Shown here: piece by piece, positions 8,486 to 21,977 of the stretch
Position numbering within the stretch: the first letter of the stretch is position 1
Layout of the letters: every line of letters starts with the position of its first letter
Assembly: GCF_003640665.1 (NCBI RefSeq)
Contig: NZ_QQXL01000008.1
Coordinates: 1 to 64,000, forward strand
Reading direction: 5' to 3'
DNA: 64,000 nucleotides
Source of the DNA: Galactobacter caseinivorans
GTDB lineage: Bacteria > Actinomycetota > Actinomycetes > Actinomycetales > Micrococcaceae
Position numbers and translations under genes: made by a program
Notes under the pieces: generated by a model
What the model was told of the DNA's origin: nothing
Databases searched by the model: none
Seen by the model: only the letters and a program-made list of their open reading frames with translations

Positions 8486-10096
8486 GTGTTGGATGATGAA
8501 ACCGTGATTACCCTGCCCCACCTCGTCTCCGCGCTGGGAAGCGAGCTGCGCGTGGCGCCCGGCCTCGCGGCGTCGAACAGGCCCTTGAGTGGCGTCCACG
8601 TGTCAGAGCTCCAGGACCCGACCCCGTACCTGGAGGGCGGGGAGCTGCTGCTGACCACCGGCATGCCGTTGGCCGCGGGCCAGGCGGAGGTGCACGCCTA
8701 CGTGACGCGCCTTGCCGCGCGGGGCGTGAGTGCGCTCGGGATTGGGCTGGGCCCGTGGGCCGCCACCCCGCCCGCCGCCCTGACGCAGGCCTGCCGCGCT
8801 GCGGGGCTTGACCTGGTCCTGGTGCCGGACGGCGTCCCGTTTCAGAACGTCTCCCGCGCCTTTTGGGGCCTGACCCTCAAGGACGGCACCGCCGGCCTGC
8901 GTGACTTCCTTGGCACGCAGACGGCGCTGGCCAGGGCAGCCACTCGCCCGGACGCCACCGCCGCCGTGATCCGCGGCCTGGCTCAGGCCCTGGGCGGCTG
9001 GGCGGCGTACGTCCCGGCGGACGGCGCGCCCCCCACCGTCTGGCCAGGGGACGTGGAGCCGCTGCTACCCACGCTCCGCGAGGACCTGGCCCGCCTCAAC
9101 CGCTCCGGCGCGCACTCCGCGGCCACCTTTGAACTGCACGGCCAACCCGTGGTGGCGCACCCGATCATGGGGGCCAGTCGCACCCACGGCTTTTTGGTGA
9201 TTGGCTCCGGGCGCACGCTGGGAGGGCCGGATCGCCAGGTGATCTCCACCGTCTGCACCCTGCTCGCCATGCGTGCGCGCCAGCGCGAGATCGTCACCGA
9301 TGCCACCGCCACCTTGGGCGGCGCCGTGGTGCGGTTGTTGCACGCCGGGCAGACCGAATCCGCCCGGCTGGTGGCGGATGAGGTGGGGCTTGGTCCGCTG
9401 CCGGAGCGCGTGCGCTGGCTGGTGCTGCGCACCGGCCCCGCGCGGGACGCGGCCACCGCGCTGGCCACGGCGGAGCGGATGCTGGGGTCAGAGCGGATGC
9501 TGGGGACCACTCAGATTCCCGGGGCGGAGGAGGGCCCGTTGCCCTGGTTCGATGCCATGCTGGGCGCCCTGCTGGGTGCCATGCACCGCGTAGAAGAGGA
9601 CGGCACGCTCGCCGTCTTGCTGCCGGCCGGGGGCAACCCGCCCGGCCCGGCCAGCACCGTCGCCGCCTCTCAGCCCCCCACCAACCCGGGCCCCGAACTC
9701 CCGCCGTTGCCGGAGTGGGCCGGAGGGGCGCTGGGAGAGGTGGTGGCCCTCTCGGCAGCCAGCCAGGCGCTCACTCTCACTCGTCGCGCTGCCGAGCAGG
9801 CGGCGTCGGGCACTATCACCCTGCCTGGCACGCCGCGCCCCGAGCGCGCCGAGGGATGGCTGGAGGAGCTGCGTGCTTACGAGCGGGCGGACCTGCTGCC
9901 CACGGTGACGGCGTATCTGCGCTGTCGTGGGCGCTGGGAGGAAGCGGCCAGGGAGCTGGGCGCGCACCGCAATTCGGTGCGTCACCGTATTGGCGTCGCG
10001 AGCGATCTGCTGGGCGTGGACCTTGACGATCCGGACGTTTCTGCGGAGCTGTGGCTGGCGCTGCGTCAGTCGCCCACGGCGGCGCGACCGCGCTGA
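8486..10096 (+). CDS. PucR family transcriptional regulator
   Basis: About 530 residues. The N-terminus (TLPHLVSALGSELRV, then ELLLTTGMPL) is the PucR ligand-associated domain. The C-terminal 60 residues (LLPTVTAYLRCRGRWEEAARELGAHRNSVRHRI) form the PucR/CdaR helix-turn-helix. Start may be GTG 8486 or GTG 8504; the latter drops six residues and matches the usual family beginning. The 162-bp gap to the divergent gcdH start should hold both promoters. PucR proteins usually respond to nitrogen or amino-acid catabolites, so control of the neighbouring dehydrogenase is a reasonable inference. The 3' end overlaps the convergent ppk2 gene by 31 bp. Confidence 0.88.
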   Translation: MLDDETVITLPHLVSALGSELRVAPGLAASNRPLSGVHVSELQDPTPYLEGGELLLTTGMPLAAGQAEVHAYVTRLAARGVSALGIGLGPWAATPPAALTQACRAAGLDLVLVPDGVPFQNVSRAFWGLTLKDGTAGLRDFLGTQTALARAATRPDATAAVIRGLAQALGGWAAYVPADGAPPTVWPGDVEPLLPTLREDLARLNRSGAHSAATFELHGQPVVAHPIMGASRTHGFLVIGSGRTLGGPDRQVISTVCTLLAMRARQREIVTDATATLGGAVVRLLHAGQTESARLVADEVGLGPLPERVRWLVLRTGPARDAATALATAERMLGSERMLGTTQIPGAEEGPLPWFDAMLGALLGAMHRVEEDGTLAVLLPAGGNPPGPASTVAASQPPTNPGPELPPLPEWAGGALGEVVALSAASQALTLTRRAAEQAASGTITLPGTPRPERAEGWLEELRAYERADLLPTVTAYLRCRGRWEEAARELGAHRNSVRHRIGVASDLLGVDLDDPDVSAELWLALRQSPTAARPR

Positions 10097-19149: not shown

Positions 19150-20622
19150 TCACATCAGCCCTGCGACGCGGCTTGCGCCCTGCGCAAACGCTCCCGCGCA
19201 CACCAACAGGACCACCACCACGCTGGCGGCGGCTTGGTATTGGGCGGACCTGATCTTGCCCGACGCCGCTGGGTCGGCTCCGGCGCCGGAGGGCCGGTTG
19301 CGCAGGCGGTTGGCAAGGATGCGCCACGCGTCGCTGCCGCGCAGCATGGCCGCAGCAGCAACCCAGACGCTCAGGCCCATCAGCGCCAGGCCGGAGCCGA
19401 GCGCGGGGCCAGCGCCGGGAAAGACGACTGGTGCCAGCAGGAGCAACAGCACAGGGATGGTGACTAGCCAGCGCAGGCGTGGCGGCCCGGACCCACCCAC
19501 CGCGGCTCGGCTCACCCGCAAGGAGGCGAATTGGGTTTGGATGGAGAGTGGCGAGGCTTGGTCCAGATCATCACGGAGCACCGAGCACCGCACCAGCTCC
19601 CCGGCAGCCCACGCCACGGCCGCCGTCGCCACGCTGGCAAGCCACCCCCAAGCGGCCACCAGCCCCGGGCCGCCCGGAAGGGCAAGTGCCGCCGCGGGCG
19701 CCCACGCCAGGAGGCTGCACAGCAGCAGCACCCACCGCCCCCAGCGCAGCCCAGGGTGAGCGCTCAAGTACTCCCTGCCCGCGTCGTCGGCCACTACTCC
19801 CGCCGCCGCCCGCTCTCCTAGCCACCACACCACCGCGCTGCCCAGCGCACCAGCGGCCGCAAACCCCGCGTTCCACGGGGTGGGAGCCAAGGCCGCGAAG
19901 CCGACCAAGCCGAGCGCGCACACGGGCACATAGCGCAGGCGCAGGTGCGCCCTGTGCTTGCGCCGCAGCAGTTCTCGGCGCGCCGAGGTCTCATCCGGGT
20001 GCTGGGCCAGGGCGGCCGTCAAGATCTGGCCGGCCCTCCGGTGCCCCTTGGCGTCCTCGCCCAGAATCATGGCGTAGTGCAGGCGTAGCGCTTCGTCCTC
20101 GGGATGGGCACCCAGCGCCTCCACCAGAGTGGAGCGCGCACCGGCAGAATCGCCGCGCTGCACCTGCAAGAACGCGGTGAAACGCGCCACCAAGACGGGG
20201 TGGGCGCCCAGCCGAGCGGCCTCGGCAATGGCCTGCTCCGCTTGGTCTAAGTACACCTCATCCCCCAGCGCCAAGAGAGCCCTGGCCAACTGCATGTGTG
20301 CGTCGCCATCCATGGGGTCAAAGTGCAGAGAGGTATTGATGTAGCTGAGCCCCGCACGGGCCTGCCCCAGGTCCAGCGCCGCGGAGGCACGGTTGAACCA
20401 GAGGGCAGCGGACTCGGGTTCAAGGCTCAGTGCGTGGGCCAGGATCTGCTCCGCCACCTCCGGATGCCCGTCCGCCATCTCTACCGCGGACAGCGACTTT
20501 AACCACTCGGTGTCATTGCCGTATTCGGACCCCGTGTCCAGTAAAACCCGGCGAGCCTGCGCGTACCGGCCGCCCGCGAAGTAGACGTGTGCTCGCCGGA
20601 GAACGTTCTCCAACTCGCTCAC
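19150..20622 (-). CDS. TPR-containing membrane protein coupled to an AAA+ ATPase
   Basis: About 490 residues. The first 220 are tetratricopeptide-like helical repeats (HVYFAGGRYAQARRVL, AEQILAHALSLEPESAALWFNRA, LSYINTSLHFDPMDGDAH). The rest carries hydrophobic stretches near 232-275, 295-345, 395-430 and 465-485, so the TPR part is anchored at the membrane. I place the start at GTG 20622, giving the GTGA overlap with the upstream ATPase gene and a good AAAGG spacing; GTG 20628 is the alternative. Codons near the C-terminus contain a GCCCGACG repeat copy encoding GADPAASGK. Function is not known; coupling implies action with the ATPase. Confidence 0.82.
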   Translation of the reverse strand: MSELENVLRRAHVYFAGGRYAQARRVLLDTGSEYGNDTEWLKSLSAVEMADGHPEVAEQILAHALSLEPESAALWFNRASAALDLGQARAGLSYINTSLHFDPMDGDAHMQLARALLALGDEVYLDQAEQAIAEAARLGAHPVLVARFTAFLQVQRGDSAGARSTLVEALGAHPEDEALRLHYAMILGEDAKGHRRAGQILTAALAQHPDETSARRELLRRKHRAHLRLRYVPVCALGLVGFAALAPTPWNAGFAAAGALGSAVVWWLGERAAAGVVADDAGREYLSAHPGLRWGRWVLLLCSLLAWAPAAALALPGGPGLVAAWGWLASVATAAVAWAAGELVRCSVLRDDLDQASPLSIQTQFASLRVSRAAVGGSGPPRLRWLVTIPVLLLLLAPVVFPGAGPALGSGLALMGLSVWVAAAAMLRGSDAWRILANRLRNRPSGAGADPAASGKIRSAQYQAAASVVVVLLVCAGAFAQGASRVAGLM

Positions 20623-21977
20623 GACCACCAGCCTTTGCGCTGCCCCGACTTTCCGCTCGCCTCGCGGGTGGACAGGTATCTGCGCAGATCGTCATAGCGG
20701 CCCGAATCGTTGGCGAAACGCACCACGTTGCGGGCAGATTGCATCCATTCCCCCGTGGAGGGGCGGACCTCTGCCAGGGCAAGTTGCAGGTGGTGCATGG
20801 TGAGTGGCTGCACGGAACCGGCCGCGATGGACTCCGTCATGGCCTTCTCCGCGGCTGTCACGGTGAGATGCTCAAGATCCGCGCCGGAGAAGCCTTCGGT
20901 GGCCTGGGTCAAGGCGGCCAGGTCAATGCCAGCCACTGGACGAGCGGCGAGGTGCGTGCGAAGGATGGCCGCGCGAGCCGTGGCATCCGGTGGGCTGACG
21001 AGCACGGCACGGTCCAGGCGGCCTGGACGCAGCACCGCCTCATCCAGGTCCCACGGGTGGTTGGTGGCGGCCAGCACGTAGAGCCCGTCGTTGTTTCCCT
21101 GCATTGAATCCATCTCCAGCAGCAGCTGGTTCACGGAGCCGCGGAGCCAGGATGCGGGCCCGGTGAGGCCGGAGCGCTTCAATGCCAATGCATCAATCTC
21201 ATCCAAAAACAGCACCGTGGGGCCGTCGTTGTGACGGGCCTCCTGGAACACAGAGTGGATATTCTTCTCGGTTTGTCCGCGATAGGAATCAACTACATCC
21301 GTCATCACCAAGGACATAAACCCGGCGCCAAGTTCACCCGCCACCGCTCGGGCCATGTAGGTCTTGCCGCAACCGGGCGCCCCGTACAACAACAGCCCGC
21401 CGCGCAGCGACTTACCGAAGGCCTTGGCAATCTCCGCATGGCGCATGGGCTGGATGAAGGACTCATTCAGGCGCTGCTTCACATCATCTAGCCCGCCCAC
21501 GTCCGCAAAGCTGATGCGGGGCAGCCCAGGCTCCAAAGGCGCCACGCCCTCTGCCTGTGGCGGGCCTCCGGGGCGAAGGTGCCCGGTCTCCGCCTGTCGC
21601 GGGTCCACAAAGGGAGGCGGCACCGCCGCATCCAACTGCTGCTCGGCATGGTGCCAATCAAAGTCCGGAGGGGTGTCCGCTGCCGGCTCCTGTGGTGCAG
21701 CGGCTTCCGAGCTGGCCGTTTCCGGGCTGACCGTTTCCGCGGGGGCCGCTTCCGGGGTGGGGGCCGACGCCGTCGGGCCGTCTCCCACGCCACCGGTCAC
21801 CAGCGCTAGCGCCTGCGCGTTTCCGGGGTCTCGCGCAAGCACCTTAGCGGCCTCCGTGACGGCCTCTGCGGGACGCCCGCTGGCCACCAAGAGGTCCGCG
21901 AGCGCCAATCGCAGTGGCACATTCTCGGGATCGGCGCTGACGGCTGCCTGGACTGCCTTGACTGCTTCGTGACTCAT
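20619..21977 (-). CDS. AAA+ ATPase with N-terminal TPR segment
   Basis: A 452-residue protein: one TPR-like unit at about 5-60, a Pro/Ala/Glu linker to about 150, then a single AAA+ module. Visible are Walker A GAPGCGKT at 199-206, Walker B VLFLDEID at 255-262, and the ATNHPWDLDEAVLRPGRLDR block holding sensor 1 and the arginine finger. The module is of the classic (katanin/CDC48-like) AAA clade, used to remodel or unfold proteins. No protease or N-terminal Cdc48 domain is present. Partner TPR tracts in both proteins suggest a membrane-bound complex. A purA terminator-like region lies upstream. Confidence 0.88.
   Translation of the reverse strand: MSHEAVKAVQAAVSADPENVPLRLALADLLVASGRPAEAVTEAAKVLARDPGNAQALALVTGGVGDGPTASAPTPEAAPAETVSPETASSEAAAPQEPAADTPPDFDWHHAEQQLDAAVPPPFVDPRQAETGHLRPGGPPQAEGVAPLEPGLPRISFADVGGLDDVKQRLNESFIQPMRHAEIAKAFGKSLRGGLLLYGAPGCGKTYMARAVAGELGAGFMSLVMTDVVDSYRGQTEKNIHSVFQEARHNDGPTVLFLDEIDALALKRSGLTGPASWLRGSVNQLLLEMDSMQGNNDGLYVLAATNHPWDLDEAVLRPGRLDRAVLVSPPDATARAAILRTHLAARPVAGIDLAALTQATEGFSGADLEHLTVTAAEKAMTESIAAGSVQPLTMHHLQLALAEVRPSTGEWMQSARNVVRFANDSGRYDDLRRYLSTREASGKSGQRKGWWS

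Follow-up and report, generated by a model that had tools for sequence, protein, structure and literature searches.

By sequence and by fold, the classical AAA module nearest to the one described here is that of CDC48/p97. EccA of type VII secretion has a TPR plus AAA layout and belongs to a different AAA clade, Cpa has two AAA domains, and Msp1 carries its own membrane helix, whereas the anchor of the present ATPase would be a separate TPR protein. The likeness to Msp1/ATAD1 lies in the possible action of a classical AAA ring on membrane proteins (PMC7018516, PMC9273213), and Cpa is a CDC48-like protein of actinobacteria (PMC6017811). Vps4 and archaeal CdvC resemble the present ATPase in layout, with one classical AAA module preceded by a small helical domain at the N-terminus and a flexible linker.

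The locus compared here lies in a 64,000-nt stretch of DNA (the window) from Galactobacter caseinivorans, and its ATPase is a different protein from Cpa. Compared with CDC48/p97, it has one AAA domain instead of two, a TPR-like N-terminus and a TPR partner gene, and no CDC48 N-domain is among the Pfam matches listed for it. Neither MIT nor Vps4_C is among those matches (best 25) and the N-terminus matches TPR_19, so a Vps4/katanin assignment was rejected; moreover, the CdvC model, whose cut-off is 650 bits, scored 158, and no ESCRT-III family is among the neighbour families listed.

The two genes and their products

The first gene encodes a TPR-AAA ATPase with Pfam matches to AAA (E = 3e-35), AAA_lid_3 (3e-8) and TPR_19 (4e-9), and its features are as follows.

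20619..21977, minus strand: TPR-AAA ATPase gene, 452 aa, stop codon included (ORF; Pfam AAA, AAA_lid_3 and TPR_19; family alignment)
21792..21971, minus strand: N-terminal TPR-like domain, residues 3-62, four helices (TPR_19 over 3-59; AlphaFold pLDDT mostly 86-95)
21609..21662, minus strand: FDWHHAEQQLDAAVPPPF linker motif, residues 106-123 (kept across several families; surrounding linker variable and of low pLDDT)
20823..21515, minus strand: classical AAA module with lid, residues 155-385 (Pfam; solved-structure matches to CDC48/p97)
21360..21383, minus strand: Walker A, GAPGCGKT, residues 199-206 (sequence; alignment columns mostly invariant)
21276..21287, minus strand: pore-loop-1 position, SYRG, residues 231-234 (position in the family alignment)
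21198..21215, minus strand: Walker B, VLFLDE, residues 255-260 (sequence; conserved)
21009..21029, minus strand: arginine-finger segment, RPGRLDR, residues 317-323 (sequence; conserved)

A disordered linker of about residues 63-150 joins the TPR-like and AAA parts, the C-terminal end is helical, and the AlphaFold model as a whole has a modest mean pLDDT of 63. The catalytic motifs, namely Walker A, Walker B and the arginine-finger segment, are all intact; four AAA relatives have Walker A in the form GPPGAGKT. From its place in the alignment, the SYRG position may be the equivalent of the CDC48 D2 pore loop. Pfam revealed no protease or other enzymatic domain besides AAA in the 452-aa protein.

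The second gene encodes a TPR protein with a membrane part.

19150..20622, minus strand: TPR membrane partner gene, 490 aa, stop codon included (ORF; Pfam TPR; hydropathy)
20619..20622, minus strand: GTGA, 4-bp overlap of the partner start with the AAA stop (sequence; same overlap in congeners L017, L018 and L029)
20002..20616, minus strand: cytoplasmic TPR array, residues 3-207, 12 helices (AlphaFold pLDDT mostly >85; best Foldseek matches are TPR structures)
19180..19959, minus strand: seven predicted membrane helices, residues 222-481, N-in/C-out (AlphaFold helices and K/R distribution)

The ORF list begins the partner at an earlier GTG, at 20628, but GTG at 20622 was taken as the start because a VSE/VSD start with the 4-bp overlap is kept by congeners. 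TPR_19 matched three stretches of the partner (5e-13), with about six TPR motifs. The count of seven membrane helices comes from the AlphaFold model combined with the positive-inside rule, and hydropathy windows alone gave 5-6. Lysine and arginine residues number 3-6 on the TPR side and 0 on the other, and the predicted N-in topology would place the TPR array on the same side as the ATPase. Thus the architecture proposed by a sequence-only reading, which had described a 4-bp overlap, TPR-like repeats in both proteins, a classic AAA module in one and a multi-helix membrane part in the other, was recovered in each of these respects.

Pairing of the AAA gene with a TPR partner

The AAA gene was found in 27 of 295 genomes of the family, and the full-length partner in exactly the same 27, always adjacent. 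With a full-length partner in 27/27 AAA-bearing and 0/268 AAA-less genomes (Fisher 8e-39, kinship ignored), chance is ruled out as the cause of this co-occurrence. As the partner profile was built partly from the 27 genomes, the informative part of the comparison is the 0/268 without a full-length match. In this search the five best candidates were scored per genome, and the remaining matches in the 295 genomes covered the TPR part only, at 67 bits or less; a single-sequence partner search matched the genus only, whereas the profile reached all 27 genomes. The order purA, AAA, partner, nitrilase is usual across several Micrococcaceae genera, and this conserved setting points to vertical inheritance of the pair with losses in Micrococcaceae.

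Class-wide, the AAA gene was present in 46/395 genomes and 25/138 genera. A partner matching the TPR profile was adjacent on the same strand, either upstream or downstream, in 34 of the 36 loci fetched, L172 and L175 being the exceptions; by eye, a divergent soluble protein of helical repeats is encoded directly downstream in L175 and in its relative L065. Orthologues occurring mostly apart, which had been set beforehand as evidence against the proposed system, were looked for and this is not the case; the coupling is tight across Actinobacteria. Among more distant AAA relatives, a TPR partner accompanies L062, L063, L064, L066, L067 and L070, and a few have none detected beside them (L068, L069 and L071). 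Two of these partnerless relatives, L068 (5827-7107) and L069 (2229-3416), show an E-to-Q change in Walker B (DQ, not DE) and have a divergently placed HtrA-like serine protease nearby. L071 also has a protease neighbour, keeps DE in Walker B and has an altered arginine-finger segment.

The membrane part of the partner varies greatly: seven helices are predicted in the window protein, many others have three to four, L161 has one, and L164, L165 and L173 show none that is convincing. Thus the conserved pair is a TPR-AAA protein with a TPR protein, and the membrane part is not constant. The earlier proposal of a membrane protein-remodelling machine is supported as regards remodelling, as the AAA module is of the remodelling type by its sequence, but not as regards an intrinsically membrane-bound machine, since partners in several lineages have one helix or none.

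Several loci have more than one partner for a single motor: four in tandem in L149, and two in L153, L156, L157, L159, L161 and L015. In the tree, L015 stands closest to the AAA protein of the window; its second tandem TPR partner (8913-9986) is broken off by the contig end. In the close set, median identity was 69% for the AAA core, 29% for the partner TPR part and 20% for the partner membrane part, and the distances showed correlations of 0.81 and 0.80. From the tandem partners, the varying membrane part and the faster partner evolution with correlated distances, we infer a constant motor with adaptable adaptors.

Within the otherwise variable linker, the motif FDWxxAE...PxF is kept in Micrococcaceae, in f8, f21, f22, f24, f50, f77, f96, f105 and f106, and in Actinomyces oris, with f77 retaining the FDWxxAE half only. 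It is present alongside both membrane and soluble partners, and is missing from the divergent, partner-bearing L064, L066, L067 and L070.

Family placement and genomic neighbourhood

The closest solved structures, by sequence and fold, were those of CDC48/p97, D2 included, and archaeal Vps4 was among the Foldseek matches. The protein has the classical AAA features of Walker A/B, an arginine-finger segment and AAA lid_3, and scored far under the curated cut-offs for CDC48, FtsH, PAN, CdvC, EccA and IteA/IetA. Membership of the CDC48 family was rejected on one AAA stretch instead of two and on 187.8 bits against the NCBIfam cut-off of 802.65, and that of FtsH on a missing M41 protease domain and 184.6 bits against 600. 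The EccA equivalog gave 26.6 bits against 466.65. For IetA/IetS, the IetA match was through the AAA domain only (132.8 bits against 510), and the neighbours are purA-like and nitrilase-like, not a subtilisin-type protease. In the tree, the AAA domains of the pair formed a clade of their own (local support 0.94), separate from the sampled sequences of CDC48, ARC and FtsH, which argues against grouping with CDC48 D1/D2; this tree was a small sample, with CDC48 from Methylobacterium, Rhizobium and Halomicrobium and with Vps4, Msp1 and Cpa left out. Due to the sub-cut-off scores and the separate clade, no named family was assigned, and the protein probably works as a classical AAA remodeller outside each named family by the criteria tested.

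The pair in the window is flanked by a purA-like gene upstream and a nitrilase-like gene downstream, both named by resemblance and not by family search. When neighbours were clustered over 47 loci, no genes other than the AAA and TPR ones themselves recurred broadly; tallies of 123 neighbours revealed no pathway with Pfam and only scattered defence matches with PADLOC. No model specific to either protein was found in Pfam, NCBIfam or PADLOC, and in public records they go under 'ATP-binding protein', 'AAA family ATPase', 'tetratricopeptide repeat protein' or 'hypothetical protein'. No description of the pair was found in a literature search that covered open-access papers, most subscription-journal papers and preprints lying outside it. 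Hence the absence of a named pathway, as first noted from the sequence, still holds for the databases and papers searched.

DnaJ genes are found at most 10 kb from the pair in G844, G886, G1046 and G935 (all f21), G967 (f24) and G043 (f8), and in Actinomyces oris a dnaK operon lies 3 kb away. This proximity is above expectation (Poisson 2e-5, for an estimated ~20 independent settings, uncorrected for the many gene classes inspected) and is, post hoc, a weak hint at proteostasis. No CIRCE element was found, and the sole match resembling an HspR box was in an unrelated locus. The loci with the pair a few kb from dnaK/dnaJ are L154, L156, L157, L160, L149, L072 and L185, which belong to several unrelated lineages.

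In one genome (G033; L077:1898-8192), a T7SS-type FtsK/SpoIIIE ATPase with an FHA domain and a WXG100-like gene stand directly upstream of the pair. A type VII secretion link was rejected, as these neighbours occur in G033 only and its congeners G101 and G306 are without them. A Streptomyces plasmid (L188:10654-16708) has the pair next to a gene of the CU044_2847 family and to one for a large NTPase with a trypsin domain. Trypsin-type conflict systems were also set aside, because the serine proteases near the pair, found on a single Streptomyces plasmid and in one family, f36, are unrelated.

Possible function of the pair

Building on the pairing established here, we infer that a classical AAA remodeller works with a TPR adaptor of its own. 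The first gene would encode a classical AAA ATPase, free of protease domains, that assembles into a ring and threads client proteins or pulls them apart, with hexamer formation and substrate threading expected by analogy with the classical AAA family. The second would encode a dedicated TPR adaptor that brings the ring to its location and clients, here at the cytoplasmic face of the membrane; an adaptor role is suggested by the up to four tandem TPR partners of one motor and by the much faster evolution of the partner. The two proteins may bind directly, with the TPR array of the partner perhaps contacted by the FDWxxAE motif or by the TPR helices at the N-terminus of the ATPase. In our judgement, a protease-free, CDC48/Vps4-like ring remodelling clients, with the adaptor setting place and clients, has about an even chance of being correct. 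The broader reading is more tentative, and we consider it rather doubtful: a widespread, hitherto undescribed actinobacterial machine, in which a general TPR-AAA unfoldase ring uses interchangeable, fast-evolving and often membrane-bound TPR adaptors that attach via the FDWxxAE motif of the linker, as a bacterial parallel to the adaptor principle of p97/Vps4. If confirmed, the phylum of Streptomyces and of many other soil-dwelling and host-associated species would gain a protease-free AAA motor equipped with adaptors of its own, and the exclusive pairing, tandem adaptors and short conserved motif make such a machine directly testable by simple genetics and pull-downs.

Among other explanations, the partner may be a TPR membrane receptor for faulty membrane proteins that the AAA ring extracts, like Msp1/ATAD1 or p97 in ERAD. 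The multi-pass partner in the window lineage and the CDC48-like AAA module fit such quality control, as do dnaK or dnaJ genes within 10 kb in four lineages, a weak hint, but some lineages have soluble or single-helix partners, and the chaperone proximity is post hoc and missing in the window genome and most others; we regard extraction as unlikely. Exclusive pairing and fast partner evolution would also fit a TPR partner that is itself a substrate or anchor, with the ring recycling a TPR receptor as Pex1/Pex6 do with peroxisomal receptors, but no recurrent third component was found among the neighbours, and this is quite improbable.

Sensing of invaders by the fast-evolving partner, as part of a conflict or defence module, would fit the patchy distribution, the duplicated partner and some copies on Streptomyces plasmids, one adjoining a trypsin-type NTPase gene. 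This reading is improbable to a similar degree, since the pair is without an effector, PADLOC matches (IetA/TRIP13 and the like) were through the AAA domain only, defence matches among the 123 neighbours were scattered, and the purA-nitrilase position is stable in several Micrococcaceae genera. Least probable of all is a chaperone for complex assembly or secretion like EccA, for which the shared layout and the one genome with an FtsK-like ATPase and a WXG100-like gene before the pair could be cited; the EccA score is far too low, congeners of that genome are without the T7SS neighbour, the sole WXG100 gene of the window genome is on another contig, and no T7SS family is among the most frequent neighbour families. 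Compared with the window protein, from which it is absent, most Micrococcaceae partners end in a proline-rich repeated tail of the xPxV/I type (e.g. L018:7521-9122 and L072:4974-6707), predicted to lie outside the membrane.
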